Assembly: GCF_028583425.1 (NCBI RefSeq)
Contig: NC_072805.1
Location: 11,480,001 to 11,544,000, forward strand
Direction of reading: 5' to 3'
Source: Eublepharis macularius
Lineage: Eukaryota > Chordata > Lepidosauria > Squamata > Eublepharidae
DNA length: 64,000 bases
Shown here: positions 1 to 35,753 of the stretch, in pieces
How the letters are laid out: each line of letters starts with the position of its first letter
Position numbering within the stretch: the first letter of the stretch is position 1
The notes under the pieces: model-generated
What the model was told of the DNA's origin: nothing
Database searches by the model: none
The model's input: only the letters and a program-made list of their open reading frames with translations
Translations under genes and position numbers: made by a program

Positions 1-339
1 TAGCTTGGCAAACTAATCCCAAAAGATGCACCATAGTAATGAGATGCCCCTTAATATTAGTGACAAATGTCAAGAGATTCCTTTCTTCCTATCCCTCTCC
101 CATCTTTATTAGACTTCCAGCTTTCTCCCCCTTCCCTTTGCAAATGATCTCCTAGTTCACAAACAGGTGCTTTCTTTGAAGATCCAACAACAGTATTCAT
201 AGTTATTAACAGGCAGTGTATCTTTAAGCACCATGTGTTGCTGACAAAAAGAATCAACTTCCGGCGCTATGAGTTTCTAGCAGTATCAGCATGCCCAGAA
301 GAATTGGTTTGGCATGGAAAGGCAACGTTAATTAATTAG
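1..339. other. No recognisable gene
   Basis: AT-rich sequence with a pyrimidine-rich stretch at about 75-140. Only short chance reading frames are present and no repeat family is recognised. Confidence 0.5.
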
Positions 340-575
340 GATCCCTACCGTTCATCCAAGGAGGAAGATTAGATTTTGAAAGGCGGCAGACCCAGGTTCA
401 AATCCCCGCTCTGCCATGCAAGGTCACTGGGTGACCTCGGACTAGCTACTCTCTTGCACCCTAGCCTACCTCACAAGGTGGTGGTTGTGAAGATAAAATG
501 GAAAAGGAAAGAATGATATTGTAAACCACTAAGAGACCCCATTGGGGAGAAAAGTGGGATCTAAGAATGGAATCT
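340..575 (+). mobile_element. tRNA-derived SINE
   Basis: A pol III B-box-like GGTTCAAATCC lies at 395-405. It is followed by the CORE-like phrase 'cactgggtgacctcgg', a 'cctacctcacaaggtg' block and 'ggttgtgaagataaaatgg', the order seen in MIR/CORE-type and many reptilian SINEs. The 3' part (gtggga, ctaagaatgg) runs into a hairpin at 561-621. The sequence is diverged from related copies elsewhere in the window, so it is probably not young. Confidence 0.65.
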
Positions 576-621
576 AATGCATGGCGCATTAACTGCGCCA
601 TGGATTAAATTCCATTCTAAG
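561..621. repeat. Imperfect hairpin, 28-bp arms
   Basis: The arm starting 'ctaagaatggaatctaatgc' (561) is complementary, with about four mismatches, to the arm ending in 'ccattctaag' (621). A loop of about 5 bases separates them. It adjoins the 3' end of a SINE and may be an independent fold-back remnant. Confidence 0.6.
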
Positions 622-1510
622 CAGCAGTTTCTGTGTTTCTAAGGAACTCAGAGTAGCTCTCACATGGTAAGGGGGGGGGGTGTCTCTAACCTAGGCAGCA
701 TCTAGGACGAGAGACCTACTCAGCTTGCAGAAGCAGAGCTGTGTCATGTCAATCTTTGGGCGCATCATGCTAATTCATACCCTAAGGAAGAAATCCTTAG
801 TAGGACTACTTATATGTAAGTCCCATTTTATTCAATGGTAATTACTCCTAGGAAAGTATACTTAGGATTGGCCTGTAAATGTTGTCATGGAGCCCATCTG
901 TGAATCCACAGCCCTTGCACTCACACAGATACACAACAAACACTGAAAATTAGGACCTGCATTGCCTCCTACCCCTCACCTCCAGTGAGCAACACATTGC
1001 ATAACCTAGTAGCAAGCAAAAAGGCTTTTTTAATGGGTTGGTAGTACATACATGGGGCTGGTCAGTCTGTTATAGGCCCCTGCAGGCACAGCAATTTGAA
1101 AAGGATTCCCGGGAAGGGGGGGGGGGCGGTCACAAGAATGAGCCTGAAATTTACTCCATTCGCTTGGTAGACTGAAGCGGTTTCAAGCCCTCTACAATGT
1201 GAAAAATCAAATTATTGCTGCCTGCCCCAGAACTCATTAAAAATAACCCTGGTTCATAGTCAGAGAAGGGAGGCCAGTCTGGCATCTAATTTCCAAAGCA
1301 ACCACTTCACCACAATGCCAGATCTATTAGAACAAGCACTTTAAGTAGCTTGAGGGTAAAACACTGTTTCACTCACTGCAAATGGGGGAGAGGAAACAAT
1401 GGGGTGGGTACGGTTTGCAAGTGAGGTACCAGAAGAAGCAAGGCTCTCCCCCTCAGCCTCTCTTTTAACTGCTTGCCACAAATGAAAAGACCATCTTTTG
1501 CACAAGGTTG
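622..1510. other. No gene seen; diffuse repeat remnants
   Basis: Non-coding sequence with two G-runs (about 671-680 and 1117-1127). A segment at about 810-870 contains 'ttcaatggtaattactcc' and 'ttaggattg', a dispersed reptilian repeat also present near 51845 and 56720. Nothing else is recognised. Confidence 0.45.
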
Positions 1511-1514
1511 CACT

Positions 1515-1731
1515 GAGGTTACCAACCTCCAGGCGGGGTCTAGAGATCTTCTGGAATTACAACTGATCCCCAGACTACAGAGAGAAATTCTCCCAGAGAA
1601 AATGGCTGCTTTGGAAGGTGGAGCCCAGGGTCTGATACCCCAGTCGGGGCCCTGCCTTCCCCCAAACCTGCCCTTCCCAGGCCGCACCCCCATATCGCCA
1701 GGAATGTCCCAACCTGGAGTTAGCAACCCTG
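1515..1731. mobile_element. MITE-like non-autonomous DNA element
   Basis: The left end 'ggttaccaacctccagg' and right end 'cctggagttagcaaccct' are inverted relatives. The interior holds 'gaattacaactgatcccc' and 'gaaaatggctgctttgg', a sequence that recurs in reptile genomes as a short element with 'agggttgccaac' ends. Related, more decayed pieces lie near 52260-52470, 58640-58720 and at both ends of 60513-61575. The superfamily is not assigned. Confidence 0.5.
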
Positions 1732-1839
1732 GCTGCGGGCTTGAGGGAGCCTCCCCGCACACAGCGGGCCACAAAATGCCCGCAATGGAACTTAAGCGAA
1801 CCACCAGACAACTTCGCAAACCAGAACGGTGCGCGTGCT

Positions 1840-2560
1840 TATGGGCAAATACCCTGGGAAAGGACTTGGAGGCGCAGCTTAAGTCGGCCGGGCCGCGCAA
1901 GGGCCACCCCTCGTCCTCCTCCCCACCCCAGCCCGGGGCCCCGCCGCGCGCCCGCTGAATCCCGGCGGAGGGCGGCCAGGGCTTTGAAGGGCTGATTGAA
2001 GGGGGCCTAATTAGCCCTCGCCAGGCCCGGGGCAATTAAAAGGGGCAAATGAAAGGCTCGTTAGCGGGAGCGGCTGCAGGTTGGCGCGCTCGCAGTCGGG
2101 CGCCCCGCGTTTACCCGCGTCCTGCTGAGGCGGCAGCTGCTGCAGCTCGTGCCTGGCACGCACTTCCATTTCCCTCCTGGGCGCGGGCGGCGGCGGCGGC
2201 GGCGTTGGGGCGGGAGAGCTTTGTACGGTCCTCGGAGCGGAGGCGCTGGGAGGGCCGCGGCAGGGCGAGGCGAGGCGAGGCGGCGCAGGAGGCGGCGGGG
2301 CGCCTCATCAAGGCCACCTGGGCTGCCTGGCCTGCGCCCTCGAGGGAAGCCCTGGGCGGGGAAAGCGGCTGGCTTCCCGGGGCCTGGCCCCCAAGCGGCT
2401 CCCCGAAGAGAAGTGAAGCTCGCTCCGCTTTTTCTTCAGGTGTGGAACCCAAAGCGCCTTTGCGACCAGCGCGCAGCAACTGCTGAGATGCGCCCCCTCC
2501 CCGGTCCAGCCTCCCCAGGGAAATCAGCCTGGCCGAGCCCTTAGGAGCGAGCCCTACCGG
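1840..2560. promoter_or_regulatory. CpG-rich block without a recognised gene
   Basis: About 700 bp of very GC- and CpG-rich DNA, including GGC-triplet runs at 2187-2205. Reading frames exist on both strands but look like composition artefacts (Ala/Arg/Gly runs) and none is recognised. Inside it, 2007-2045 is AT-containing and carries the palindrome CTAATTAG (2007-2014) and GCAATTAAA, which are homeodomain-type sites. It could be a CpG-island promoter or 5' exon of an unannotated transcript, or a regulatory island. The nearest coding sequence downstream is the NTAN1 retrocopy, about 1.3 kb away. Confidence 0.5.
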
Positions 2561-2569
2561 GTTTACTCA

Positions 2570-3500
2570 CAAGCAGGTCCCGCTTTATGCAATGGGGCTT
2601 TCTTACAGGAAAGTCACCCAGCCTGAAACGATTCCGGTTTCTTCTGCGGTGAGCTTCCCTCTCGCTGGGCTTTTGCTCATTTTTGGGCTCCTCCGTGGAA
2701 ATCCTCCGGCAGATTTCCTTCCATGTATTTAGGGATTTTCCTCACGGTATGAAATTTCTCTTTAGGCCTATGCTAAGTATGTTGGAAGAGGCTATGTGAA
2801 CTACAAACCACAAAATACATGCAGATGGTCACCCTTCTAGCTGACAATTGTTGCAGCTGGAGGAGTCCTTGCCAAAAGGTGTATTTGCAGGATACTCTAA
2901 AGAGCCCAGTTTGCACATCTCCAACAAGTTTGGGCTTACAGAGTAGTGCTGACTACTCTTCCTTCTGATACACATTGGACAAGCTGCTGTCTAGCCGCTC
3001 GCACTGCTGTGGACAAGTGTGGTGGGATGGCAGGAGCATCACTTCTGCTCAGACACTGCTTACCAGGATGTATCCTTGAGAATGTTAAGATTGAAATGTG
3101 CCTCCAAACTGAGCGTAAAAAAGATGCCCACAAGTGAGAGCCTGCAAGGACTCTTGGGGGGGCATCTCATCCCCCCTCCTGCCATGTCCTTCCCTGCCCC
3201 CCCATAGCCTCTCCCTGTTTTTCTGCTTCTTTCTCTCCTTCCTCACTGGCTTTCTTTGTCCTCGACTTCACTTTTCCCCATGCCCCTCCCAGCCTCTCCC
3301 TATAGTCCAGTTGCATGGTAGGGAACCTGCAATAACTTGCAGAGGATACTTTGCTTTCCCCTGTATCCCCTTCACCACACTGTTTCCTCTCTCCCTCCTC
3401 CTGGCAGCCTCCATATGCTTGCCTTTTCCTACATCCTTCTCTCCTTCAAACCCACGTAACAACTTGACTTTTATTGCCCCCCAATCTTCATCTATATTTC
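2570..3500. other. No recognisable gene; pyrimidine-rich tract
   Basis: Plain non-coding sequence. From about 3140 to 3490 the plus strand is strongly C/T-rich, which produces a long low-complexity reading frame that should not be taken as a gene. Confidence 0.5.
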
Positions 3501-3509
3501 TTTTTTCAT

Positions 3510-3700
3510 TTATATGCTGCCTTTCTCCACAAAAGGGACCCAAAGCAGATTACATCATTCTCCCTGCCTCGATATTATCCTCACAACACTGACAGGTAGG
3601 TTAGGCTGGGAGTGTGTTACTGGTTCAAAGTCACCTGGTGAGCTTCTGCAGCACAGTGTTGATTCAAACCTTTCTGAAACTGTAACCACTACACTGCAGT
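3510..3700 (-). mobile_element. SINE fragment, reverse orientation
   Basis: Contains 'tatatgctgcctttctcc', 'attatcctcacaacactgac', 'caaagtcacctggtgagctt' and 'accactacactgcagtgg'. Read on the minus strand this is the order of a tRNA-derived SINE: tRNA-like head, core, then a tail ending in a LINE-like 'ggcagcatataaat'. It lies just upstream of the NTAN1 retrocopy. Confidence 0.55.
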
Positions 3701-3818
3701 GGCTTTTGTTTGAAATGGCTGCTATTGAACAATAGCAAGCATACAAGTCATGTGGTATCAAGTTATTTAGTGGTTGCTTCTGGGCCTGGCCCCAATGAGT
3801 CTTCCCTTAAAGGTCAAG

Positions 3819-3830
3819 ATAGCCCTGGAA
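3819..3830. repeat. Left target-site duplication of NTAN1 retrocopy
   Basis: ATAGCCCTGGAA, repeated exactly at 4935-4946 directly after the A-tail. Confidence 0.8.
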
Positions 3831-4934
3831 GGGGACTCGCGGCTTCCTCGCAGCCCGGGCGCGATTTCCCCAGGATGCCTCTGCGGGTCAACGGGGAGCG
3901 GATCGACCCGTCGCGGCCCGCCCGGGAGCTGCTGCGTTTGTGCCCGGAGCTGGAGGAGAGAGCCAAGCTGCTGCGGAGCCAGCCTGCTCGAACAGTGGGA
4001 CCCCGAGGCCTTTTGTATGTTCAGCAGAGAGAGTTTGCAGCAACTACTCCTAAAGATGGGTCCATTTCTGTTCTGGGATCTGACGACGCAACTACCTGCC
4101 ACTTGGTAGTGCTCAGACACACGGGTAGTGGGGCCATCTGTCTGATGCACTGCGATGGGTCAGATACAGAAAAAGAAGTTTTATTAATTACCAACGCAGT
4201 CAGAGCGCTCTCTCCTAACACAGAATACGGAAGGTTGGAAGTACATCTCATTGGCGGCTTCAATGATGATCGACACTTATCCCAACAACTAACCCATCAG
4301 CTTCTTCGAGCGTTTGACCGCTTGCAGGACGATATTCATTTAGTGACATTCTGTGTGACAGAGTTGAATGACCGGCAGGAAAAAGGCAATCACTTTCCAT
4401 ACATTTATGGTATTGCTGCAAATGTTAAGACTGGAGAGATTTTCCATGCTTTTTTTCCAGACAAAGGACCAGAGGAGGATTTGCGGTCAGCCAGTATCTT
4501 AACAGGAGCTCAGATGGTTAACATTTATGACTCCAGAAAGGAGCAACTCTGTATTGGGCCTTACTTTTGGATGCCTTTCCCTCCGGCGAATTTCTGGCTA
4601 GACCAGGATGACCAGTACCTACTGCAGAACCTCTCCACATCCCCCCGGGCTGAGCCGCCTCATTTCATTTCTCACATCCGAGCAACTCTGCTGTGTCTGA
4701 AAGAGCATCCCTTCCCAGATCAGACCCTGTTCTCCAGCAGGAAGCCTTGGATCTATGTCAAGAATGAAGACGGCCTCTGGGAGAAGATTTCTGACCAAAT
4801 CTAACCTGAAGAGCAGAAACTGAGGCAGTATAGTTGTACCAAACAAGGAACTCACAGTCAGAGGCTAAGAAGGATTACAGAAATAAGATTGTAATATACA
4901 TAAACATTGTAAATATGCACATAAAAAAAAAAAT
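3831..4934 (+). mobile_element. NTAN1 retrocopy insertion unit
   Basis: The inserted cDNA runs from a short GC-rich 5'UTR (3831-3874) through the coding region to a 3'UTR of about 120 bp ending in an A-run (4923-4933). It is flanked by a direct repeat, ATAGCCCTGGAA, at 3819-3830 and 4935-4946. Extended outward it matches 14 of 15 bases. Lack of introns, an A-tail and a target-site duplication are the three marks of L1-type retroposition. Confidence 0.85.
3875..4804 (+). CDS. NTAN1-like protein N-terminal asparagine amidohydrolase, intronless retrogene
   Basis: A 309-residue protein in one uninterrupted frame; the mammalian protein has 310. NTAN1 deamidates an N-terminal Asn to Asp, the first step sending such proteins into the Arg/N-degron pathway. 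The start is the ATG at 3875 (MPLRVNGERI), which matches the family N-terminus; the frame is open for 55 more codons upstream but without homology. The conserved block LLYVQQREFA is followed by SDDATTCHLVVLRHTG, which holds the catalytic nucleophile Cys75 at its family position. GRLEVHLIGGF, ELNDRQE, HFPYIYGIA and the C-terminal KNEDGLWEKIS are also kept. Vertebrate NTAN1 is normally split into about ten exons, so this is a processed copy, supported by the A-tail and target-site duplication. No stop or frameshift is seen. It is either young or under selection; expression cannot be judged from sequence. Confidence 0.9.
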   Translation: MPLRVNGERIDPSRPARELLRLCPELEERAKLLRSQPARTVGPRGLLYVQQREFAATTPKDGSISVLGSDDATTCHLVVLRHTGSGAICLMHCDGSDTEKEVLLITNAVRALSPNTEYGRLEVHLIGGFNDDRHLSQQLTHQLLRAFDRLQDDIHLVTFCVTELNDRQEKGNHFPYIYGIAANVKTGEIFHAFFPDKGPEEDLRSASILTGAQMVNIYDSRKEQLCIGPYFWMPFPPANFWLDQDDQYLLQNLSTSPRAEPPHFISHIRATLLCLKEHPFPDQTLFSSRKPWIYVKNEDGLWEKISDQI

Positions 4935-4949
4935 ATAGCCCTGGAAAGG

Positions 4950-5610
4950 GCCCTGCCTCATCCTGCCCTACACTGACCGAAACCAAGACTGTAGTATTGG
5001 CTGAACTATTACAGTTGCCTAGCAACTGCCACTGAGGGCAACTGGTTAAAGCTACAGTTGCTCCTTTTATTATTTGGGTTTTTTTACCCCCTCCCCCATG
5101 TATTATTTTTCGATTTCAGATTTTTCTATGAACTTGGGCATTTTCCAGGCAGGTCTTGTCTGTTCACGGCTCCAGTCTTGGGATTTAAGTACGCTCAGAT
5201 CTTTGACACTTGGCTATTAGTATATAAGATGTATCCAGAGACTGAAGAAGAATACCTGCTCACCCTTCTAGCAGAAGTGGGTTTTTTTTCTGAGTCAGGC
5301 AACATTCCTGGGCTATATGAGAAAGTATACAGTGTAACTTTCATGTAGCTGCCTGGTAAGATGAACTTTAGAACCATTATGCTGATAAAGTACAAACCAT
5401 CTCAAAGCTAACCAGCTTGTTGGGTAGTTTAATAAAAGACAGGTCCTATAATGTTCTAGTAAGACCTGTTTGTTCAGGAAAACTTTCAGCAGTATACAAA
5501 TGGTGTCCTGAGTTGAGAAATTTTCAGAAAATGCATTTGGAGCTCTTCCGTGCACTCTTGAGGGGTGGGTGGGTAGGCCCTGTTGAACACAATGGTACAC
5601 CCTACTGAAT
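4950..5610. other. No recognisable gene
   Basis: Non-coding flank of the retrocopy insertion with T-rich stretches. Short frames on both strands show no family resemblance. Confidence 0.45.
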
Positions 5611-7298: not shown

Positions 7299-8393
7299 TT
7301 GAATTTTTATGCCGCCCATCTCCCGAAGGACTCAGGGCGGTGTACAGCAAAAGTAAAACATACAAATATAAAACACTAAGAATATAAAATAAACATATTA
7401 AATAATTTAACTCAGAAACAGGACAACTCAAAACACATTTAGGCCAGCCCCGCTTGTTGGAATAATAACGTCTTAAGGGCACGGCGAAAGGTGTGTAGAT
7501 CAGGGACCATACGGATCTCCAGGGGCAATTCCTTCCAGAGGGCAGAAGGCTCTCCCCCCGGGGGTCACCAGCTGACATTGTTTGACCGGCAGCACCCTGA
7601 GGAGGCCCTCTCTGTGGGAGCGTACTGGCCTGTGGGAGGCTATCGGTAGCAGCAGGCGGTCTCGCAAATACCTAGGCCCTAAGCCATGGAACGCTCTGAA
7701 GATGGTATCCAGCACCTTGAAACGCACCCGGAAGACCACCGGAAGCTAGTGTAGCTCGTGCAGGAGAGGTGTTACATGGGCACGCCGTGTCGCTCCCATA
7801 ATCACCCGCGCGGCCGCATTCTGCACTAATTGCAGCCTCCGGGAGGTCCTCAGGGGGAGCCCCATATAGAGAGCATTACAGTAGTCCAGACGGGAGGAAA
7901 CAAGGGCATGGGTGACTGTGCACAAGGCGTCCCGATCCAGAAAAGGACGCAACTGGTGAACCAGGCGAACCTGATAAAAAGCCCCCCTGGCCACGGCCGA
8001 CACATGATCTTCTAACGACAGCCGTGCATCCAGGAGGACACCCAAGTTGCGAATCCTCTCTGTGGGGACCAAAATCTCGCCCCCAATAGACAGCGATGGA
8101 ACCAGCTGGCTATAACGGGGCGCCGGAAACCACAGCCACTCAGTCTTGGAAGGGTTGAGTCTGAGCCTGCTTCTCCCCATCCAGATCCGCACGGCCTCCA
8201 GGCACCGGGACATCACGTTAAGGGCATCATTGGGGTGATCCAGGGTAGAGATGTACAACTGAGTATCATCAGCATACTGATGGTACTTTACCCCAAAACC
8301 ACAGATGATCTCACCCAGCGGCTTCACATAGATGTTAAACAGAAGGGGCGAGAGGACCGACCCCTGCGGCACCCCACAAGTGAGGTGCCTCCG
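7257..8393 (-). mobile_element. L2 LINE, 3' half (interrupted by L1)
   Basis: The minus-strand frame 8372-7746 reads [13 protein letters not shown], then [12 protein letters not shown] (the catalytic YADD), [43 protein letters not shown] and [12 protein letters not shown], the palm-to-thumb region of an L2/CR1-group reverse transcriptase. Codons 3' of this degrade into the UTR and the (TACTT)n tail. The 5' half continues at 14884, after the L1 insertion. Frame quality suggests moderate age, younger than the L2 at 5614-6330. Confidence 0.85.
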
Positions 8394-8395
8394 GG
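8378..8395. repeat. Left target-site duplication of L1 copy 1
   Basis: AAGTGAGGTGCCTCCGGG here matches 14884-14901 exactly over 18 bases. The last few G bases may belong to the element, so the true duplication is 15-18 bp. It lies within L2 sequence. Confidence 0.85.
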
Positions 8396-8771
8396 ACTTC
8401 CGGTTTGGGATTCATGGAGGTCTAACACAGCTCCATTCGCGGAGCTGACCGGACTGCCGTTTTAACCGGCCGGAGGGGTGAAATAGCCCGCGGCCGACTG
8501 CTCTCAGGCGGGGAGCAGGCAAAGAATGCTCAAGACCCTAGGGTGAGCTAGATCTCGGACGAGGGGGGGCTCTGCTCAACGAGTCTCCCCCCGATCCTTG
8601 AGGTCCCACCTTGCGACGGGTCGGCTATAATCTCTGCGGCAGTTTTGGGGCCAATTCGGCTGGCATAAGACCTACATACCCAAGCTTCGATTGGGAAAGG
8701 AAGCTGAGAGGAGAATTTAAGATCGAAACAGCGATTACAACCCGAGAAAAGTGAAGAGAAGGTAAAGATCG

Positions 8772-9176
8772 CTATCTTTTGATACGGGACAGATTGACAA
8801 AAACAGAGAGGAAAGAAAGTAGATTTTTAAACTGCAACAGACTAGTGAAAAGGAGGTGAAGACTCGGCAGGAGTTGTATTTTAAAAGAGACTAAGTTTAA
8901 AGAAGTTATTAAAGAAATCAGACTATTGTTTTGAATACCTGTGGTTTTGGAGCTGTGGGAAAAAGACACCATCGCGAGACCTGCTATGGGAAGACGGGAG
9001 ACAGGAAGTGCGTAACAACAATAGAGCGGCTGGAGAGAAGCGGCCCTTGCCGAAGGACAGGAAGTAGGGAATCGCCATTTTTGAAAGGGGAAGGGTCGCG
9101 GCTTCAGCGGAAGAGGAAGTAGGCCATTTTGGATTACAACAACATAGAGAAACCATAGAGAAAAGACGCCCGACAT
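8772..9176 (-). other. Antisense ORF in L1 5'UTR, copy 1 (134 codons)
   Basis: An ATG-initiated minus-strand frame (MSGVFSLWFLY...) lies wholly in the 5'UTR opposite to ORF1. An in-frame upstream ATG would lengthen it to 148 codons. The same frame is open in copy 2 (35224-35625, 133 codons), differing by substitutions and one 3-bp in-frame indel (YCCYALP versus YCYALP). The position recalls primate L1 ORF0, but no sequence relation is claimed. It may be fortuitous. Confidence 0.35.
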
Positions 9177-9303
9177 TTTGGACACTTTAAAATTTAATTT
9201 TGGCAAAGATTGGGACATTTGAAAAAAGAAAAACGTTTAATTTTACGCGACGGAGTTAAGGAAGAGAGCAGATTCGTGGGAGCGAGCTAAAGCAAGCCCC
9301 ACG

Positions 9304-10098
9304 ATGTCGAAAAAAGAGTGGCAATCGGCAATAGAAAATCTGGATAAAAATCTGGACAAAAAACTTGTAGATATGATTAAAGAACTTAAGGACACGAAAT
9401 TGGAGCTTATTAAAGAGGTTAAAGAGGTTACACAGACAGTAAAGTCGGAGCTGTCAGAAGTGAAAAAAGGTATGGAAACGATTCGTAGTGAATTACAAGG
9501 AACGCAGCAGAGAGTTAAAACAGTAGAAGACGCGATGGAGAATTTAATAGACACGCAACAAACAGAGATGAGATTGGTGAAGGGGAGGATGTCAGTTGCA
9601 GAAACTAAACACATGGAGAAGCAGCTTCGTTTTCGTGGTCTGCCAGAAGTGGAAGGGAAGTCAGCGCAAGAACAGATGACTGAGGTGTTGGCTGAATACC
9701 TGGGGAAGGAGGAGGAGGAAGTTGTGGCTATCCTAGATGTGGTGTACCGTGTGAACTCGAGAATTGCAACCCAGAGGAAATTACCAAGGGATGTGATTGT
9801 GCAGTTTACAACTAGAAACATGAAAGAGAGGATTGTGACAAAGCAGTTTCAAGATCCATTGGAGATTGATGGCAAGACGATCATTATAATGAAGGAACTG
9901 CCCAGATCAGTGTTATTGGACCGGAAAAAATATAAAGTGCTAATTCAGATTTTGAAGGACATGAATATCAGGTACAGATGGGAGCTACCGGAAGGAGTGT
10001 CCTTTGAGTTTGGAGGGGCAAAAAAACGCATCAGATCTGAGCGAGAGATGGAGCGATTTATTAAGGACAATGAAAAAGACTTACCAACAAAACTATGA
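9304..10098 (+). CDS. L1 ORF1 protein, copy 1
   Basis: The 264-residue protein is the L1 RNA-binding chaperone that packages L1 RNA into a cytoplasmic particle. Residues 1-110 are a charged, heptad-like coiled coil (ENLDKNLDKKLVDMIKEL, VKSELSEVKKGMETI, QQRVKTVEDAMENL). From about residue 110 an RRM-like domain follows (HMEKQLRFRGLPE, VAILDVVYRVNSR), then a C-terminal domain (RDVIVQFTTRNMKE, LPRSVLLDRKKY, FGGAKKRIRSEREMERF). The ATG at 9304 matches that of copy 2. The stop codon overlaps the ORF2 start (ATGA). No breaks are seen. Confidence 0.9.
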   Translation: MSKKEWQSAIENLDKNLDKKLVDMIKELKDTKLELIKEVKEVTQTVKSELSEVKKGMETIRSELQGTQQRVKTVEDAMENLIDTQQTEMRLVKGRMSVAETKHMEKQLRFRGLPEVEGKSAQEQMTEVLAEYLGKEEEEVVAILDVVYRVNSRIATQRKLPRDVIVQFTTRNMKERIVTKQFQDPLEIDGKTIIIMKELPRSVLLDRKKYKVLIQILKDMNIRYRWELPEGVSFEFGGAKKRIRSEREMERFIKDNEKDLPTKL

Positions 10099-13000
10099 AT
10101 ATGGAGTGTAAAGTATTATCTTGGAATGTAAATGGACTAAACTCACCGAATAAGAGGAAAAATATTTTTCATTGGCTACTAAAACAAAAATGTGATATTG
10201 TTTGTTTGCAAGAGACCCATATTAGAAAACAGGATGTAAAATATTTAAAATCTGGAAAACTGGGCAAAGAATTTGTAGCGGCCTCCAACAAGAAAAAAAG
10301 AGGAGTGGTGTTGTACATAAAAGAGGAGCTACAGCCAAAATTTGTTATGAGAGATGTGGAAGCTAGATTTGTAGCAGTGGAATGCAATTGGAATTTAAAG
10401 AGAGTGTTGGTAGTCGGACTTTATGCACCTAATGGTGCAAAGGAAAGCTTCTTTGAGGATTTAAGGAAGCATTTAGACGATCTTGCATATGACCAGATAA
10501 TTCTTGCTGGAGACTTCAATGGAGTGACAGACTTGGAACTAGACAAAAAGACTACAACAGCACAAAAGAAAAGAGGACTATTGCCAAAGCTCTTTTTTGA
10601 GTTGATTCAACAAGAGACTCTCGAAGATGTATGGAGGAGAGAATATCCTAAAAGTAGACAGTTTACTTTTTATTCTGCAAGGCATTTTACATTATCAAGA
10701 ATCGATATGATCTGGGCCTCAAAAGACTTAGCGTTATGGACTAAGGAGGTAGAAATAATGCCGATGGTAGGCTCAGATCACAACCCAATTATGTGGAAAT
10801 TCGGAAAAAGGAGAAAAAGGAAAACCTGGAGAATAAATGAGGACTTGTTACAGGAAAGAGAGAATATGGAAATACTGAGAAGAGAGACAAAGTTTTTTAT
10901 ACAATACAACGTGAATAAAGAAGTACCAACCAACAAAGTTTGGGATGCGTACAAGGCGGTTGTAAGGGGCATACTAATGGATTTAAATGGCAGAGCAAGA
11001 AAAAAGAAAGAGGAGAAAAGACAAGAGATTGAGGAGAAAATAAAAGCCAAAGAAACACAGTTAAAAAAGAGACCAGGGAAAAAGAAAGTATACCAGGAAA
11101 TTAAAATTCTTCAAGAACAGCTAACAGCAATGAGTAATAAAGAATTGGAGTGGAACCTTAAAAGACTGAACCAAAAAGCGTTTGAGGGTGCTAATAAACC
11201 TGGGAAATATTTGGCATGGCAATTGAAGAAGAAAAGGGAAAAGAAAGTAATAAATAAAATCTGTGAAGAAAATAAAACGTACTTGGAGCAGACTACCATT
11301 AGTAGAGCCTTTTATAAATTCTATGCTAAGCTGTATAATAAAAAAGAAGTAAACAAAGAATCAATAGCATCATATCTGGAGAAAACCAAACTTCCAGAAA
11401 TCTCGGAAGCTTGGAGAAATAAGTTGAACAGTGAAGTAACCGATGAGGAAATAAGCAAGGCAATACAATCTGCAAATCTAGGAAAGGCGCCAGGGCCAGA
11501 TGGACTTACGGCTAAATTTTATAAGACAATGGCCAATGAACTGGCACCATTCCTAAAAGAGGTGATGAATGGAGTTTTTAGGGATCAAAGGATTCCAGAT
11601 ACTTGGAGTGAAGCGAATATATCATTGATCCCAAAAGAGGGCCAAGACCTGACTAACGTGAAAAATTACAGACCTATATCATTACTTAATAATGACTATA
11701 AAATTTTTGCGAAGATATTGGCGGAGAGATTGAAGGGGTGGCTCTCGGAAGTCATAGAGGAGGAACAAGCAGGCTTTTTGCCAGACAGACAAATAAGAGA
11801 CAATTTAAGGACAGTGATCAATGCTATTGAATATTATGACAAGCGTTGTGACAAAGAGGTTGGTTTCTTCTTTGTAGATGCTGAAAAAGCGTTTGACAAT
11901 TTAAACTGGGACTTTATGTTTGCCACTATGGAAAAGCTACAATTGGGAGAAAGATTCATCAGAGCAATTAAGGAAATTTATAGAGACCAGACTGCAGCAA
12001 TTGTAGTGAATGATGAATTGACCAAGAAATTGACGATTAGTAAAGGAACAAGACAAGGTTGCCCGTTATCTCCATTGTTGTTCATTTTAGTATTGGAGAT
12101 TCTGATGATACAAATACGACAAGATGAGGAAATTCGAGGAATAAAAATAAAGGACTATTCATATAAGGTCAGAGCATTTGCGGATGACATAATGTTAATT
12201 GTAGAAGAGCCACTGGAGAACATGCCAAAAGTGATAGATAAGATCAAGGAGTTTGGAGACTTGGCAGGTTTCTTCATTAACAAAAAGAAGTCAAAGATAT
12301 TATGCAAAAACATGACTAAGCAGAAACAACAATTGTTAATGGAAACAACGGATTGTGAAGTAACAAGTAAGGTGAAATATTTGGGAATTGAGCTGACTGC
12401 AAAAAATATAGATTTGTTCAAGAATAATTATGAAAAACTATGGACTCAGATAGAGAGAGATTTGATCAAATGGAATAGATTGAACTTGTCATGGTTGGGC
12501 AGGATTGCAGCAGTTAAGATGAATGTGTTACCAAGAGTAATGTTTTTGCTACAGACAATACCAATCATCAGAGACTCTAAACAATTTGAAAAATGGCAGA
12601 GGAAAATATCAGATTTTGTTTGGGCAGGCAAGAAGCCTCGAGTGAAAGTAAAAGTTCTACAAGATGCAAAGGAAAGAGGCGGAATGCAACTGCCCAACCT
12701 GAGATTTTATCATGATGCAATCTGCCTAGTTTGGTTAAAAGAGTGGATGACATTAAAGAATAAGAAACTATTAGCCCTAGAGGGATATAAAAAATTTTTT
12801 GGATGGCACGCATACCTATGGCATGACAAAGTAAAGGTCAACTCGATGTTCCTGCATCATTTTGTAAGGAGAAGTTTATATACAATCTGGAAGAAGTACA
12901 GAATTTACCTACAAGAAGGAACCCCCTTGTGGGTGGTTCCATACGAGGTGATAGATCCGAGAGCTGTTGATAATGAACAACAATGTTTAACGTACAAAGA

Positions 13001-13856
13001 AATAACTAAAACTGAAGTATCTAAACTTAGAATAAAGACGCAAGAGGAACTATCACCTAACTATGATTGGTTCCAGTATAGACAGATTAGAGACTTATAC
13101 AATTCGGACTCTGCAAAGGGGGGCATACGAACAGAGAACTCGGAACTAGAGCAGACCCTTCTTAAAGAAGACAAGAAAAGAGTATCCAAGGTATACCAAG
13201 TACTGTTGAAATGGTATACTGAGGATGAGATAGTTAAAACACAGATGGTGAAATGGGCTATAAATTTCAACAAAGAAATAACAATGGAGGCATGGGAATA
13301 CTTGTGGAAAACTACAATGAAGATAACGACATGTACTAATATTAAAGAGAACATTTACAAAATGATTTATCGTTGGTACATGACACCAAAGAAGATTGCG
13401 CTAGGGAACTTGAATACTTCTAATAAATGCTGGAAATGTAAGAAACATGAGGGCTCCCTCTATCACATGTGGTGGTCGTGTGAGGTAGCTAGGCAGTACT
13501 GGGGGGAAGTAATAAGAGAAATGAGTGAAATTTTACAATTTCAAATAAATAAGAACCCAGAACTCCTGCTACTAAACTTGGGAATGGAGGGAATTCCAGC
13601 CCATCATAGGACGTTGATATTTTATATGACAGCAGCAGCCAGACTTTTGTATGCGCAAAAATGGAAAGTACAAGAAGTGCCAACTATTGAAGATTGGATC
13701 TACAAATTGCTGTACATGGCAGAAATGGATAAGATGACAAGAAAACTGAGAAATCTGGACTCAGGGCAGTTTAACACAGACTGGGAGAAGCTGGAACAAT
13801 ATCTGGAGAAGAAATGGGAGGTGGGAGGAAAACTGTGGCAGTTTGAGAACTACTGA
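10095..13856 (+). CDS. L1 ORF2 protein, copy 1: endonuclease-reverse transcriptase
   Basis: A 1253-residue intact protein for target-primed reverse transcription. The N-terminal apurinic-like endonuclease (about 1-235) carries SWNVNGLN, CLQETH, LAGDFNGV, SRIDMIW and SDHNPI. The reverse transcriptase (about 450-760) carries GKAPGPDGL, NYRPISLLNNDYKI, AGFLPDRQIRDN, FFFVDAEKAFDNLNW, GTRQGCPLSPLLF and the catalytic FADD at residues 695-698. The C-terminus has the Cys-rich CWKCKKHEGSLYHMWWSC. The start ATG at 10095 overlaps the ORF1 stop by four bases, suggesting reinitiation; a second in-frame ATG lies two codons on. No stop or frameshift is visible, so this copy could be retrotransposition-competent. 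Confidence 0.93.
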   Translation: MNMECKVLSWNVNGLNSPNKRKNIFHWLLKQKCDIVCLQETHIRKQDVKYLKSGKLGKEFVAASNKKKRGVVLYIKEELQPKFVMRDVEARFVAVECNWNLKRVLVVGLYAPNGAKESFFEDLRKHLDDLAYDQIILAGDFNGVTDLELDKKTTTAQKKRGLLPKLFFELIQQETLEDVWRREYPKSRQFTFYSARHFTLSRIDMIWASKDLALWTKEVEIMPMVGSDHNPIMWKFGKRRKRKTWRINEDLLQERENMEILRRETKFFIQYNVNKEVPTNKVWDAYKAVVRGILMDLNGRARKKKEEKRQEIEEKIKAKETQLKKRPGKKKVYQEIKILQEQLTAMSNKELEWNLKRLNQKAFEGANKPGKYLAWQLKKKREKKVINKICEENKTYLEQTTISRAFYKFYAKLYNKKEVNKESIASYLEKTKLPEISEAWRNKLNSEVTDEEISKAIQSANLGKAPGPDGLTAKFYKTMANELAPFLKEVMNGVFRDQRIPDTWSEANISLIPKEGQDLTNVKNYRPISLLNNDYKIFAKILAERLKGWLSEVIEEEQAGFLPDRQIRDNLRTVINAIEYYDKRCDKEVGFFFVDAEKAFDNLNWDFMFATMEKLQLGERFIRAIKEIYRDQTAAIVVNDELTKKLTISKGTRQGCPLSPLLFILVLEILMIQIRQDEEIRGIKIKDYSYKVRAFADDIMLIVEEPLENMPKVIDKIKEFGDLAGFFINKKKSKILCKNMTKQKQQLLMETTDCEVTSKVKYLGIELTAKNIDLFKNNYEKLWTQIERDLIKWNRLNLSWLGRIAAVKMNVLPRVMFLLQTIPIIRDSKQFEKWQRKISDFVWAGKKPRVKVKVLQDAKERGGMQLPNLRFYHDAICLVWLKEWMTLKNKKLLALEGYKKFFGWHAYLWHDKVKVNSMFLHHFVRRSLYTIWKKYRIYLQEGTPLWVVPYEVIDPRAVDNEQQCLTYKEITKTEVSKLRIKTQEELSPNYDWFQYRQIRDLYNSDSAKGGIRTENSELEQTLLKEDKKRVSKVYQVLLKWYTEDEIVKTQMVKWAINFNKEITMEAWEYLWKTTMKITTCTNIKENIYKMIYRWYMTPKKIALGNLNTSNKCWKCKKHEGSLYHMWWSCEVARQYWGEVIREMSEILQFQINKNPELLLLNLGMEGIPAHHRTLIFYMTAAARLLYAQKWKVQEVPTIEDWIYKLLYMAEMDKMTRKLRNLDSGQFNTDWEKLEQYLEKKWEVGGKLWQFENY

Positions 13857-14883
13857 AGTATAATAAAAGTATAATAGAGGGGGGTGACTTTACCGAGGGA
13901 GGAAGAGATAAATGTGAATTAATAAGCAGTTAACAGATTGATATATAAATAGATATATATAGGTTAATAGATAGAATATTGATAGAAAATAATTAACGAT
14001 AAGGTTTAAATATAAGGAGTGAATAACTAACAATATTTTCTTTCTTTGATAAGATTTATATGCACCAAACTGAATGTACAGAAGAGTCAAATTGATTGAC
14101 TATGTGATGTGCTATATAGAACTACCATAAAAAGATAGAATGAGGAATATATAGAGAATAAGTCAAATTGTTTGATTTGAATGTAAGATTTTTATGGTTC
14201 ATGATATATAGAAATATTTGAAACTGGAAAATGGGATAAATTGTTTATCTAAGATGAAAACAAAGACTTACAGTTTGGGTATATAACGAGAAAGGTAGTT
14301 AAGGATGTACTGCTTAATATAAGCTGAAACAATATCTGGAGAAGAAATGGGAGGTGGGAGGAAAACTGTGGCAGTTTGAGAACTACTGAAGTATAATAAA
14401 AGTATAAAAGAGAGGGGTGACTTTACCACCAAACTGAATGTACAGAAGAGTTAAATTGATTGACTATGTGATGAGCTATATAGAATTACCATAAAAAGAT
14501 AGAATGAGGAATATATAGAGAACAAGTCAAATTGTTTGATTTAAATGTAAGATTTTTATGGTTTATGATATATAGGTTTATGATATATAGAAATATTCAA
14601 AACTGGAAAATGGGATAAATTGTTTATCTAAAGACGTACAGTTTGGGTGTATAATAAGAAAAGTAGTTAAAGATGTACTGCTTAGTATAATGGAGAATCT
14701 ATATCTGTTTTAGACAGAGGAATTTGATAGAAGTAAGGGAAAAGGGACAAAGGGTGGGAAAGCTGTTGGAAGTCAAAAAAAGGGGGGGAAAGGGAGGGGG
14801 TTAGAAATGAAAAATTTGGGGAAAATTGAATGTAATGTAAAAATAATAATATTCTAACCCAATAAAAAAATTTTCAAAAAAAA
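13857..14883 (+). repeat. L1 copy 1 composite 3' region
   Basis: The ordinary 3'UTR (13857-about 14321) is followed by a second unit starting 'gctgaaacaatatctggag'. This again contains the last ORF2 codons and stop, then a 3'UTR lacking about 165 bp between 'gactttacc' and 'accaaactgaatg', and finally the A-tail. The second unit's 'gctgaaacaat' agrees with L1 copy 2, not with this copy's own 'gctggaacaat' at 13789. Confidence 0.8.
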
Positions 14884-15966
14884 AAGTGAGGTGCCTCCGG
14901 GTCAACCTCTGCCCCCCTGTCAGCACAAACTGCAAGTGGTCGGAGAGGAAGGAGGAGAACCATCGCAACACAGTGCCCCCCACTCCCAGCCCCTCCAACC
15001 GCCGCAGCATGACACCATGGTCGATGGTGTCAAAAGCCGCTGAGAGGTCTAATAGGACCAGGACAGAGGAGCAACCCCTGTCCCGAGCCCTCCAGAGATC
15101 ATCAACCAATGCAACCAATGCCGTTTCTGTACCGTGCCCAGGCCTGAAGCCCGACTGATACGGATCCAGATAGACATCTTCCTCCAGGTGCTGGGGAAGT
15201 TGTTGCGCCATCACACTCTCGACAACCTTCGCCACAAAACGAAGGTTGGAGACTGGACGATAGTTTGCTAATACAGCCGGATCCAGGGAAGGCTTCTTGA
15301 GGAGGGGCCTCATCAACGCCTCTTTTAGGGCCGCTGGGAAGAAACCCTCTCGCAGAGAAGCGTTAATAATTCCCTGGAGCCAGCCTCGTGTGACCTCCCG
15401 GGAGGCCACCACCAGCCAGGAGGGGCATGGGTCCAATAAACAAGTAGCAGCGCTAAGCCTACCCAGTATCCTGTCCATGTCCTCGGGAGTCACAGGGTCA
15501 AACTCTTCCCAGATGACATTCACACGACCCACCTCTGTCCCCCCATCTATACCCACCCAGTCAGAGTCCAGACCCTCCCGGATCTGAGCGATCTTGTCGT
15601 GCAGATATTGGACAAAATCCTCAGCCTTGCCCTGCAAAGGGTCTTCCCGCGTTCCCTGGTGAAGTAGGGAGCGAGTCACCCTAAACAGGGCGGCCGGGCG
15701 ATTATCTGCAGACGCGATCAAAGCAGAAAAATAATTGGATTTCGCCGCCTTTATCGCCCCTAGGTAGGTCTTAATATAAGACCGTACCAGTGTCCGGTCA
15801 GAATCGGAACGGCTGGCCCTCCAACCACTCTCTAGGCGTCTTTTCCGGCGTTTCATCTCCCTCAGCTCCTCAGAAAACCAGGGGGCCACTCGGGATCGGC
15901 ACCGGGTCAGAGGCCGCAAAGGCACGACACGGTCCAAAGCTCCAGCGGCCGCCCTATCCCAGGCAG
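14884..15966 (-). mobile_element. L2 LINE, 5' half (interrupted by L1)
   Basis: The minus-strand frame from 15937 reads through a region before the RT (APWFSEELREMKRRKRRLES, YLGAIKAAKSNYFSALI) and then the RT itself: LKEALMRPLLKKPSLDP, NYRPVSNLRFVAKVVESV, PYQSGFRPGHGTETALVALV and VLLDLSAAFDTIDHGVML. The 3' half continues at 8393 downward. The 5' end at about 15966 is truncated (the endonuclease domain is absent). The frame is well preserved, so the L2 was fairly young when L1 copy 1 entered it. Confidence 0.88.
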
Positions 15967-17549: not shown

Positions 17550-19330
17550 CGTAAAGGAATCCTTACTCACAGTTGGCACCAGTGAACTACACATGGTTCA
17601 ATCAGAAGCAAGATACATCTTTATTGGTCCAGATTTGTTGTAGACAAGCGGTAAATTCATTATCGCTGTTGCATCCTTGAGGGAAAGGGTCCCAACAAAG
17701 GGAGGAAGAGGACCATCAACTTTTAACACCTTCACAGGAAGCCTACAATAAACTTCTATATTGGAGGGGGGACTACAATTCCCATGAATACCAATTGTTA
17801 AAGGGACAGCACATAGTTCTGACTGCACAGATACGAGGCTTTCTAAGCTGTGGTTACAGTACACTCCCCACCTGGGATCCTATGGATTCCACCCCAACAT
17901 GCAAGCCAGTGGAGTATCCTAACAAGTCTAAGCATATATGTCATGCTACACTATTCTTATAACTAGGCAAATAAAGGCTGAATATAGCATATAGCAACAA
18001 AATGGCATGCAAAGCTTGAGCTTCAGTCTTCAAGATCAGTCTTCTGAACAAGCAGGATCACTTCGGTGACTGGTCTGGTGAAAATCTTCGGGCCGTCGTG
18101 TCTGGCTACACGAATGTCAATCTTGCGGACCAACCCGTCCGCGCTGGGTAGAACTCGATCTATAAGTCCATCTCTCTCTCTCTTTTCTCTGCAAGCTCCA
18201 CAGCAAGCACAGCACCGCATAGTTGCAGACGTGGGATGGTGTGTCCCTGTAGCGGGGCTAACTTAGCTTTCCCCAGGATGAAGCCCACGTGGACTGGGTT
18301 CTCCCCGCCAACGACCTGCAGATATGCCACGGCTGCAATCGCTTTCGTTGATGCATCTGAGAAGATGTGTAGCTCTCTGCGGGAGGCGGCGGCAGGTGAG
18401 ACTGGTACATAGGTGCGTGGGATCTGGATAGCTTGCAGGCAGTTGAGCGAACCTCTCCAGGCCTCCCATTCCTTTCTTTGGTCAGGGGGATGAGGCTCAT
18501 CCCAGTCTTTGGTGCCTAAGGAGAGGGTGCGTAGGAGGTGTTTTCCTTGGATGGTCACTGGTGCAGCGAACCCCAAGGGATCAAACAAGCTGTTCACTGC
18601 CGACAGGACTCCTCGTCGTGTGAACTGTTTCTCTTGGGCTGGTGCTTGGAAGATGAAGGTGTCCTTCTTCAGGTCCCAACTCAGTCCAAGGCTGCGTTGG
18701 AGGAGGGGAGTGTCGCCACCCAAGTCTCGATCCTGTAGTCCTTTGGCATGGTCTTCTGGAGCAAATGCTTCCAACACCTTAGTGCTGTTGGATGCGATTT
18801 TGTGCAGCCTAAGATTAGCTGCAGCCAGCATTTGTTGTGTTCTCTTTAGCAGGTCCACGGCTTCTTCTGGAGTGGGTAAGGACTTCAGTCCATCATCCAC
18901 ATAGAAGTCCCGTTCCACAAATTGCCTTGCGTCCAGGCCGTACTTCCCTTCTCCTATGCGTGCAGTTTGATGCAACCCATAGTTGGCAATTGCTGGGGAC
19001 GGTCCATTGCCGAACACGTGGACTCGCATGCGATACTCGGTAATCTTCTGGCTATGCAGTTCATCGCTGAACCATAAGAAGCGTAGGTAGTTGCGGTGAT
19101 CATCTCTGATGAGGAAGGAATAGAACATCTGCTGGATGTCCACCATGACGGCTACAGCTTCCTTTCTAAAGCCAGTTCTTCATGCAAGTCCAGACATCCG
19201 CCCTCCACAACTTCATCGTCCAAGCACAGTAAGTCAGCCTCAAAATGCAGTAGCTGTTCTCGTCGTTCTAATACCTCCTTGCTTGCCTTGGATTTGGCTC
19301 GTGCGAGTTTTGCGCGACATCATGCAAAAC
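17550..19330 (-). mobile_element. BEL/Pao LTR retrotransposon fossil
   Basis: Part of a BEL/Pao-type pol lies on the minus strand at 19146-18160: reverse transcriptase (FYSFLIRDDHRNYLRFLWF, FYVDDGLKSLPT), connection (SLFDPLGFAAPVTIQGK) and RNase H-like region (LHIFSDASTKAIAAVAYL). A short charged gag-like stretch lies at about 19330-19150, and a probable 3' LTR at about 17863-17550 (TGTACTG start after a purine-rich tract, AATAAA-type signal). It is broken: large internal parts (most of gag, protease, integrase) and the 5' LTR are missing, with a few further breaks. Age is probably moderate. Confidence 0.7.
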
Positions 19331-22329: not shown

Positions 22330-25300
22330 TCTGAAATGACCTAGATTTTGCAACTAGTTCCCTCTCCATGACCATACAAGGCCTCCTGGAATCCATCTCA
22401 GAGAGCCACTTAGCAGGTCAAGCTGAAAGCTGTTCCACCACAAAGACAGGCCATTTCCTAGCCAGCACTATGGCTGAAAAAGTGCTTGACGAGGTGCATT
22501 CAGCAGCATGGAAGATCAATTTAGACACTCTTCCCAAGAATGGAGGATGCGAGGAATACACGTGCCTGTTATCCTCCAGTGACCATGCATGTCTGGGCAT
22601 CCTTTGCAGTCATGACCTCTGCCGTACTGAGAGTCCCCTAGCGTCTGAGTTGGCAGAGAGCACTGCTTATGAGACTGAACAGATTATAATGGGCACATTG
22701 AAGGACTTGGCTGCTTCTGGCCAAACGTACCTCTTACCCATTGAATTGTGTGCAAGGATGAAGGCTCTTAGTGCGCGTCTGAAGCAGACTTATGCAGTCC
22801 TCTTTGGGACACCCCCTGAAAGATCCAGCTGATCGGTTCTTCTGAGATGAAGATGCTTCAGTAGAGAGAAGATATAGCCAGGAATGTCTTGAGCAGTGAC
22901 CAGACACAGATCAGTCAGGAAGGACTCCTAGAGAGTACAGAAACTTCCAGGCTCCTTCAGCTCTTTGAAGATATCTTCAATGGCTTGAGTACACAACCTA
23001 ACGAGGGTTTCTCTCCAACCAGAGCCAGTGGGGAAATGGAAAGAGGACTTCCTGGCCAGGTGTCAAAATCCATAGCAATAAAGCTGAGGAAACCACTTCC
23101 TCTCGTTAATCTCCCGGGAATGACCATGTACTCAGATGATGAAGAAGAGGACGAAGAACCAGCTGCATCTTCCTCCTCTAACACCAAGGAGCAGCCAGTC
23201 TGGGCCACAGTGGAACCTCAAGGCCAACTAAGGTCTGAGAACTCTGACACAGAATCCCAAGAGAGAAGAGGAGCCTGTTTTGCACAACTCCCAGAGGCGT
23301 TTCTGGAGAATGAAGATGGGGACCAAAACACTACCTTGGCTAAAGTCTTTAAAATGATGGAAGATGACTCTCAGCTCATTGAACTGGTAACTCTCACATG
23401 TAACTTTAAAGTTTATTTCTAAAACCAGATTGGAAGACCCTTTTCCAGCTCCTTCATCTCTGGTCCAGCAGAGCATCCATACACGGGGACGAGAGGAGCA
23501 GTCAACTGCCACAAGTCATGGTCAGTTCAGCAGCCAGGCTGCCATCTCGGATGTGAATATTAAGAATTTCACAAGTGAGCTGGTGAAAATGCTGTTTTTG
23601 AGTAAGTTGCATGTGCCATTCTACCTGATGCTCAAAGCACCAAAAGTAGGGAGCTGACTGTGCGCTCCATGGAGCCAGGAACATCCAACGGGGGGCCTCA
23701 GCCTACCATGGACAATCTAGCCCAAAGCAATCCACCTGGAAGCCACAGCCTTCCATTCAAGTCCACCCTGGCTAATGAGGTGGTACTATCTGCATTAGCA
23801 AAACTGGAAGCATTTGTAATACTGAATATAGAATCTCAATTCCATTCTGAGGTGTTGAACCCAAAACCTTCAACAAGTTCAGGGGTTTCTTCTAGCGTGG
23901 ACTAAGATGGCAAGGCACACAGCTTTTTGCCCTACTTTCTTGGATAGTAATTATAACTCCAACAAGGTCCCATCGTGTTTCTTGACTCTAGACGGATATA
24001 CTGACAAACTCGCCCAGGCAATCCTGAAGAGCATCAGACAGATGAAAGATAAAGAAATGGAGAAGATTACCTCTCCGCTATTCTTTTGTTTGAAAGCCAG
24101 TTTACTAATATGCTTTTAGACATTTTCAGTCCTCATGAACACTGGTCTGAAATGCAGCATCCCTTCAAAGAAGAATCATGTGTTTTAGAAAAGCTTCTTA
24201 GGAAAAATGTCGTTGATAGGAGAGATCTTAAAATCAGAGGCTATGATACCATGACAACTCTTCTCAATGAGATCTATGAAAAAACAAGGCTACATGTGGA
24301 AAATATCCCTTCTTCATCTTGCCAGGAGAAATGTCCAGGCTCTGGAACTGAATTCCAACTGCCCGAGGTTGCTACCATCCAAAGCCCCCTGTCCCAACCA
24401 GCCCTTGAGAAAAGCAATGAATTGCTTGTTGCCAATGATCGGATTAGGATAGCTCTTGAAGATCTGGGTTGTGCTCTTGCAGCGGCCCAGGGATCATTCT
24501 GTCAACAAATCCAGGCAGTCTTTCACAATGTTGTCCACAAGTCAGCTAAGCCTCTAGGACAGACAACTGGAAGCCCAGGCAGGGCACAGCTGAGGAGCCA
24601 CGTTTTAGACTGAAACAGGCAAACACCAGTTCTTCAGGAAATCTAACACTAAAGAGTCCCTCAATATAAAAATGAACGATTGGGCTGATCAACAACCAGG
24701 GCTTTTTTTCAGCTGGAACACGGGGGAATGGAGTTCCAGGACCTCTCAAAAATGGTCACATGGCTGGTGGCCCTGCCCCCTGATCTCCAGACAGAGGGGA
24801 GTTTAGATTGCAAGGGCAATCTCCACTCCCCTCTGTCTGGAGATCAGGAAGCGGAGCCACCAGCCATGTGATCATTTTCTCCGAGGGCAACCCAGTGAGT
24901 TCCACCACCTCTTTCCCCAGAAAAATAGCCCTGTCAACAACTGACAGCTTTCGAGGACTCTTCTCCTAAAGGCATAGCAGATCACCTAGTCCAAGACATT
25001 TTCCATCAGGCTGATAGCATTTCTCAGAGACAAATGGGATTCTGTGTGTTCAGTTGATGGAGGCTCACTTCCTGCTGATTGCTGCAGTTCTGGAGCTCAT
25101 CCAGACAGACATCGAAGAGGAGATGCTCACTTCCCAGCAAGTCATCCCATGTGAAGAATGTGCTGCTGCAAGTGACATGGTCAAGGAATCCTGCCTGATC
25201 TTAAAAAGGCCAAGAGATCTTCCAGCCGAGCACGAGGAGGACCTGCCAGAGGACACAGCTTCAAGCCTGCTTTCCACCAGAAGGGAGTCGCAGGAGAGCA

Positions 25301-34827: not shown

Positions 34828-34843
34828 AAAAGCAGGGTCACCT
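34828..34843. repeat. Left target-site duplication of L1 copy 2
   Basis: AAAAGCAGGGTCACCT here matches 40992-41007 exactly (16 bp; the leading A bases may merge with the tail at the right side). Confidence 0.85.
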
Positions 34844-35223
34844 TGGACTTCCGGTTTGGGATTCATGGAGGTCTAACGCAGCTCCATTTGCGGAGCTGAC
34901 CGGACTGCCGTTTTAAGCGGCCGGCGGGGTGAAAATAGCCCGCGGCCGACTGCTCTCAGGCGGAGAGCAGGCAAAGAACGCTCAAGACCCTAGGGTGAGT
35001 TAGATCTCGGACGAGGGGGGGCTCTGCGTAACGGGTCCCCTCCCGATCCTTGAGGTCCCACCTTGCGACGGGTCGGCTACAATCTCTGCGGCAGTTTTGG
35101 GGCCAACTTGGCTGGCATAAGACCTACATACCCAAGCTTCGATTGGGGGAAGAAGTGGAAAGGAGAACTTGAAATCGAAACAGCGATTACAACCCGAGGA
35201 AAGTGAAGGGAAGGTAAAGATCA

Positions 35224-35625
35224 CTATCTTCCGATACGGGACAGATTGATAAAAACAGAGAGGAGAAAAAGTAGACTTTTAAACTGCAACAGACTAGCGA
35301 AAAGGAGGGGAAGCTTCGGCAGGAGTTGTATTTGAAAAGAGACTAAGTTTAAAGAAGTTATTAAAGAAATTGGACTATTGTTTTGAATACCTGTGGCTTT
35401 GGAGCTGTGAGAAAAAGACACCATCGCGAGATCTGCTGTGGGAAGACGGGAGACAGGAAGTGCGTAACAATAGAGCGGCTGGAGAGAAGCGGCCCTTGCT
35501 GGAGGGCAGGAAGAAGGGAATCGCCATTTTTGAGAGGGGAAGGGTCGCGGCTTCAGCGGAAAAGGAAGTAGGCCATATTGGATTACAAAATCATAGAGAG
35601 ACCATAGAGAAAAGACGCCCGACAT
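35224..35625 (-). other. Antisense ORF in L1 5'UTR, copy 2 (133 codons)
   Basis: ATG-initiated counterpart of the antisense frame at 8772-9176 (MSGVFSLWSLYDFVIQ...), with the same start, stop and length apart from one codon. Confidence 0.35.
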
Positions 35626-35753
35626 TTTGGACCCTTTAAAATCAATTTATGCAAGAAGACCGGGACATTTGAAATAAAAAAGGTACTAAATTTAACGCCA
35701 CGGAGTTAAGGAAGAGAGCGGACTCGTGGGAGCGAGCCAAAGCAAGCCCCACG

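Follow-up and report, generated by a model that had tools for sequence, protein, structure and literature searches.

An intronless NTAN1 copy

The window, by which we mean the whole 64,000-nucleotide stretch of Eublepharis macularius DNA that was analysed, contains an intact NTAN1 frame lying within what has the anatomy of a complete cDNA insertion. The insertion and the features around it are as follows.

1751-2750, no strand assigned: CpG island found by CpG scan, about 1.1 kb upstream of the NTAN1 copy
3819-3830, + strand: 5' target-site duplication (TSD) from alignment, exact over 12 bp; 3816-3830 with one mismatch in 15 bp
3831-4933, + strand: full-length NTAN1 cDNA insertion (5'UTR, frame, 3'UTR and A-tail)
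3831-3874, + strand: 5'UTR of the copied mRNA, 44 nt, CpG-rich, with a purine at -3 of the ATG (sequence)
3875-4804, + strand: intact NTAN1 coding frame, 309 codons, 930 nt (ORF list, Pfam, PDB alignment)
4805-4922, + strand: 3'UTR of the copied mRNA, 118 nt (sequence)
4923-4933, + strand: A-tail, an uninterrupted A11 (sequence)
4935-4946, + strand: 3' TSD from alignment, exact over 12 bp; 4932-4946 with one mismatch in 15 bp

The frame at 3875-4804 encodes 309 amino acids without an in-frame stop. Its product aligns with human NTAN1 (PDB 6a0e) over residues 1-307 without a gap, with Cys at position 75, and since the alignment is gapless there is no intron inside the frame. An earlier note on this DNA, which described a whole intronless 309-codon NTAN1 frame retaining Cys75, is borne out in this respect. 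Vertebrate NTAN1 is a multi-exon gene. In Drosophila, Ntan1 has introns (PMC9427837). The body of the copy, excluding the A-tail, is 1,092 nt long (44 + 930 + 118). In the last 40 nt of its 3'UTR there are two variant polyadenylation hexamers, AATATA (4893) and CATAAA (4899); the canonical AATAAA was not found there, which speaks against the retrocopy account given below. No second NTAN1 copy was detected in the window by blastn, whose only hits were two short ones, 17 and 19 nt long (E 0.71).

The exact 12-bp repeat flanking the copy, ATAGCCCTGGAA, occurs at 3819-3830 and 4935-4946, these two sites being its only occurrences on the + strand of the window; the other strand has none. A single T lies between the A11 run and the exact 3' repeat. 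Direct repeats of this length, together with an A-run ending the copy, had also been claimed in the earlier note, whose bounds of 3819-4946 prove to be the outer edges of the exact repeats. When stretched to 15 bp the repeat matches at 14 of 15 positions (3816-3830 and 4932-4946), the first two A of the 3' repeat then overlapping the A-tail. Read either way, its length falls within the range of about 7-20 bp for TSDs of L1-made retrocopies. Dating the copy by the TSD mismatch was considered and rejected, as one mismatch in 15 bp gives no useful bound.

The encoded protein

Comparison with Pfam assigned the protein to PF14736 (N_Asn_amidohyd) with a score of 379.9 bits and an E-value of 7.6e-114, the match running from position 2 to position 270 of the 270-position profile. 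Human NTAN1 scores 403.4 bits against the same profile. The lower value could reflect either lineage divergence or relaxed constraint, and the gap was rejected as a sign of decay, a reading that would call for comparison with the parent. The resemblance to the human enzyme extends over the full length of the alignment, in which 201 of 307 residues are identical.

The catalytic triad of NTAN1 (Cys75, His92 and Ser69) and the residues contacting its substrate are named in PMC7022378. At 16 of the 18 functional positions checked, the copy has the human residue: the triad is kept, as are all six substrate-binding residues (Gln51, Thr73, Thr74, Ser254, Thr255 and Glu260). Both differences fall in the pocket that receives the second residue of the substrate (positions 205, 208, 209, 264, 267, 268 and 271), where five of seven positions are identical and the substitutions A205S and T208I are present; these may already have been the parent's own state. 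Besides these two substitutions, the copy differs from NTAN1 in being a single exon. Positions 191 and 226, both Arg in human, are His and Cys in the copy, and here too the parent may already have had these residues. Since the triad and the six substrate-binding residues are kept, the product, if translated, is predicted to be a likely competent catalyst, and the purine at -3 of the ATG is compatible with translation.

Other approaches to the protein added little. An AlphaFold2 model built from the single sequence had a mean pLDDT of 36.7 and was uninformative. Scans for relatives with a few exact peptide patterns each gave 1 and 14 pattern stretches in viral contigs and 36 in genome contigs, none of them confirmed, and vertebrates are unlikely in either collection; tblastn of the protein against plasmids gave no match.

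Retroelements in the window and the origin of the copy

The window also contains two full-length, A-tailed elements, which we take to be L1, mainly from the architecture of ORF2, the A-tail and a weak Transposase_22 match, along with parts of other retroelements.

8378-14901, + strand: L1-like element A, full length, with an exact 18-bp TSD (8378-8395 and 14884-14901) and an A10 tail
34828-41007, + strand: L1-like element B, full length and of the same family as A, with an exact 16-bp TSD (34828-34843 and 40992-41007) and an A14 tail
7746-8213 and 14801-15856, - strand: ORFs resembling parts of one CR1/L2-like non-LTR element, with RVT_1 in the second and no Pfam match in the first
18160-19146, - strand: ORF with a Pao retrotransposon peptidase (PF05380, Pfam), a fragment of a BEL/Pao-type LTR element

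Over about 6 kb the two L1-like elements share 90.5% identity, which falls to 87% in the 3' part. Both ORFs of element A are open (ORF1 of 264 and ORF2 of 1253 amino acids, the latter with endonuclease and reverse transcriptase domains), so that it is possibly still mobile, while in element B ORF2 is interrupted. ORF1 of element B matches the L1 Transposase_22 family, though below the cutoff; that of element A gave weak Pfam matches, also below the cutoff, to unrelated families. The 3' region of element A contains an imperfect internal duplication (14063-14322 and 14427-14690) with a spacing of about 365-380 bp. The two minus-strand CR1/L2-like ORFs, which lie on either side of element A, are probably parts of one older element into which A was inserted.

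The association of A-tail and repeat at the NTAN1 copy was assessed against chance in two ways. In 500 single-letter shuffles of the flanks (3771-3870 and 4921-5000), a shared word of at least 12 was obtained once. The whole window, both strands included, was then scanned for A-runs of at least 9 having within a few bases an exact 11-mer with a second occurrence up to 7 kb upstream. Six A-runs of this length are present, and three of them are followed by an exact 11-nt word recurring upstream: those of the NTAN1 copy and of the two full-length L1s. At control positions lying 30-400 nt beyond these A-runs, upstream recurrence of an 11-nt word was seen in 1 of 120 cases, words made up of only one or two letters being skipped in the control and not in the scan itself. 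L1-mediated retrocopying is well supported because the copy and the two full-length L1s are the only structures of this kind found in the window.

The insertion points themselves are at most suggestive. Using the 15-bp TSD, that of the NTAN1 copy reads GGTC/AAGAT (the slash marking the insertion point) and those of the L1s read CCAC/AAGTG and CTTC/AAAAG, all having C/AA followed by A or G, a common form resting on three cases, and one to which alignment of the A's with the tail may contribute by construction. If the exact 12-bp TSD is used instead, the insertion point of the copy becomes CAAG/ATAG, unlike those of the window's L1s.

Absence of introns, an A-tail and a TSD are the described hallmarks of L1-mediated retrocopying (PMC7692494), and the NTAN1 copy shares all three with the processed retrocopies of vertebrates, to which may be added its full length and a genome carrying an apparently intact L1. 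Structurally it is no different from them. The repeat, the A-tail, the full-length cDNA shape and the two A-tailed L1s with TSDs all uphold the L1-mediated origin proposed in the earlier note, as does element A, with both ORFs open, the suggestion that L1 copies within the window show a plausible source of the machinery. An L1-type retrocopy is, we infer, practically certain as the origin of the NTAN1 copy. The alternative is that L1 was not involved, the copy being either a DNA-level duplicate that lost its introns or the work of another retroelement, CR1/L2-like or LTR. Candidates for the latter are at hand in the window, namely the reverse transcriptase ORF at 14801-15856 and the Pao-type ORF at 18160-19146. 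Against them, an A-tail with a TSD is the L1 hallmark, and the remaining such structures found in the window are the two L1s. In chicken, for which a 2011 survey counted 205,000 CR1 and no LINE1, there are 78 retrocopies. Across the chordates compared in that survey, the number of retrocopies follows the copy number of LINE1 and of no other LINEs, lizard being left out of the comparison (PMC3136929). We regard an origin other than L1 as barely credible.

The sequence of events that best accounts for the L1-made copy may be proposed as follows. The starting material would have been a spliced and polyadenylated NTAN1 mRNA, about 1.1 kb long, that was probably to be found in the germ line. This mRNA would have been reverse-transcribed and inserted by target-primed reverse transcription, with L1 proteins acting in trans. 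The insertion would have been full length, bringing its own short 5'UTR and 3'UTR and an A-tail and acquiring a target-site duplication, and would be recent enough for the frame, the catalytic residues and the CpGs of the 5' end to have escaped decay so far. Were the copy transcribed, with the upstream CpG island as one conceivable source, its product would be expected to act like NTAN1 and deamidate N-terminal Asn. Taken as a whole, this account of a young, intact, L1-made NTAN1 retrocopy seems to us reasonably probable.

A germline source is hinted at by transcript size. In mouse, an Ntan1 transcript of about 1.4 kb was found in all eight tissues examined, and one of about 1.1 kb was prominent in testis only (PMC9427837). 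A testis-type mRNA would fit the 1,092-nt body of the copy, a comparison made across species and on size alone, the measured transcript size including a poly(A) tail of unknown length. Phrase searches of open-licence papers on the exons, introns or splicing of NTAN1 returned nothing, nor did one on its testis transcript together with polyadenylation.

Age of the insertion

The time for which the frame might have stayed whole under neutrality was estimated by simulating decay of the copy's own frame, CpG mutability and indel rate being combined in four ways, with 1,000 trials per point. Depending on the setting, the whole frame survived in 42-67% of trials at a divergence (d) of 0.005, 18-50% at 0.01, 3-22% at 0.02, 0.4-11% at 0.03 and 0-3% at 0.05. 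Survival falls through the 5% level between d of about 0.02 and 0.04. A neutral NTAN1 copy is therefore probably younger than a divergence of about 0.02-0.04. The squamate substitution rate in PMC6050309 is printed as 2.4 x 10^9 per year and site, a minus sign having evidently been lost; at that rate, the divergence would correspond to roughly 8-17 million years. Since neutral frames have a useful chance of being whole only below about 0.02-0.04, youth alone is enough to explain the whole frame. The simulation thus supports the description of the copy in the earlier note as 'young or selected', although it cannot separate the two.

CpG content was considered as a further indicator of age. Within its first 224 nt the copied mRNA contains 20 CpG, with an observed/expected ratio (o/e) of 0.83 and without an excess of TpG or CpA (1.03 and 0.85, respectively); the adjoining 2751-3750 has 5 CpG in 1 kb. 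The rest of the copy (4055-4922) has ratios of 0.46 for CpG, 1.16 for TpG and 1.26 for CpA, not far from the window averages of 0.43, 1.18 and 1.14, and its 3'UTR contains no CpG at all. The CpG sign of youth is confined to the 5' end of the copy, and what the lower values elsewhere mean would depend on the parent's own CpG content. The CpG-rich 5' end could result from recent insertion, or it could be an unmethylated, possibly active 5' end or working promoter.

Neutral copy, selected retrogene or replacement

The whole frame of the NTAN1 copy is most likely due to youth. The main rival is a selected retrogene: purifying selection would be maintaining a transcribed, L1-made copy that supplies a second NTAN1 enzyme, perhaps with a germline bias, in line with the possible functional second enzyme of the N-degron pathway suggested in the earlier note. 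In its favour are the whole frame and the 16 of 18 functional residues shared with human, triad and six substrate-binding residues included, as well as the CpG-rich copied 5' end itself and the CpG island that lies 1.1 kb upstream and is, judging from its position, a possible source of transcription. Comparative surveys lend it some weight: in that of 2011, 217 of 404 lizard retrocopies (54%, whole frames being common in non-mammalian retrocopies) were intact and 136 were classed as functional retrogenes by Ka/Ks (PMC3136929), and species-specific squamate retrocopies have been found to cluster below a dN/dS of 0.5 (PMC13320880). Given these base rates, an intact species-specific lizard retrocopy is to be expected, and a working one would be a minority to even-odds outcome, according to the criterion used; pairs with dS below 0.05 are left out by the survey methods, so that the youngest copies are absent from the figure. 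The same sequence is, however, predicted by a young neutral copy. When neutral copies were simulated to d = 0.02, a fraction of 0.67 retained all nine catalytic and substrate-binding residues, whether or not the frame was whole, and for this reason the kept catalytic residues are no proof of selection. Retention of Cys75 was likewise rejected as evidence of selection, as an unaltered active site is to be expected in most young neutral copies. Moreover, two residues of the pocket for the second substrate residue are unlike human. On balance we consider a selected retrogene unlikely, though the most serious competitor to youth.

A more specific form of this rival, which we hold to be doubtful, links the putative testis-type isoform to the present copy: a transcribed, single-exon second Asn-amidase, possibly tissue-restricted, with the second-position pocket changed by A205S and T208I, the species then having two enzymes that split the work between them, or only the retrogene. 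Further still, the presumed multi-exon parent might have been lost, leaving the copy as the only NTAN1 of the species. A full-length enzyme with a whole frame would be consistent with such a replacement, and a case has been described for amphioxus SYCP1 (PMC5803294). There too the copy is a single-exon version of a gene that has introns elsewhere and lies near another possible promoter; the difference lies in the loss of the parent and the expression of the copy, which for NTAN1 would be conjectural. Against replacement, the uninterrupted A-tail, the near-perfect TSD and the CpG-rich 5' end suggest an insertion too young for the process to have been completed, and we judge it very improbable.

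No report of an NTAN1 retrogene or processed pseudogene was found in the open-licence papers searched, the search for the latter leading to work on SVA and a human low-copy repeat. Should the copy be no more than young and neutral, it would be one more among several hundred lizard retrocopies (404 in PMC3136929). If it were expressed and selected, the Asn branch of the N-degron pathway would have gained a retrogene, and the copy would offer a natural test of whether changes are possible in the second-position pocket. In addition, the window pairs a retrocopy with an apparently intact L1 in a non-mammalian genome.

Genomic neighbourhood

The remaining features of the window are as follows.

22368-22832, 24110-24613 and 45722-46183, + strand: three ORFs of 153-167 amino acids (ORF list)
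43501-44700: strong CpG island (CpG scan)
55115-56179: intronless TMEM30B (CDC50B) frame, 354 amino acids, best PDB match 7vgh ('Cell cycle control protein 50B')

None of the three ORFs has a Pfam match, or a PDB match at E up to 0.1, and they are possible exons of unnamed genes. Around the strong CpG island, the six frames of 42501-47000 read through stops yielded no Pfam family at E up to 0.1, and the island may be the promoter of a gene that is noncoding or has escaped recognition. The same procedure applied to 1-4001, again at E up to 0.1, found no family either, and a search of the whole window against Rfam at gathering scores gave no match.

By the match of its TMEM30B frame, the window is the TMEM30B neighbourhood. 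In human, the neighbour of TMEM30B is PRKCH, and we asked whether the CpG island at about 1.75-2.75 kb could be that of PRKCH; this was rejected, as first-exon peptide patterns are absent from the window, a weak test because the patterns are short. Near the TMEM30B frame itself there is a further CpG island, at about 53.7-55.0 kb.
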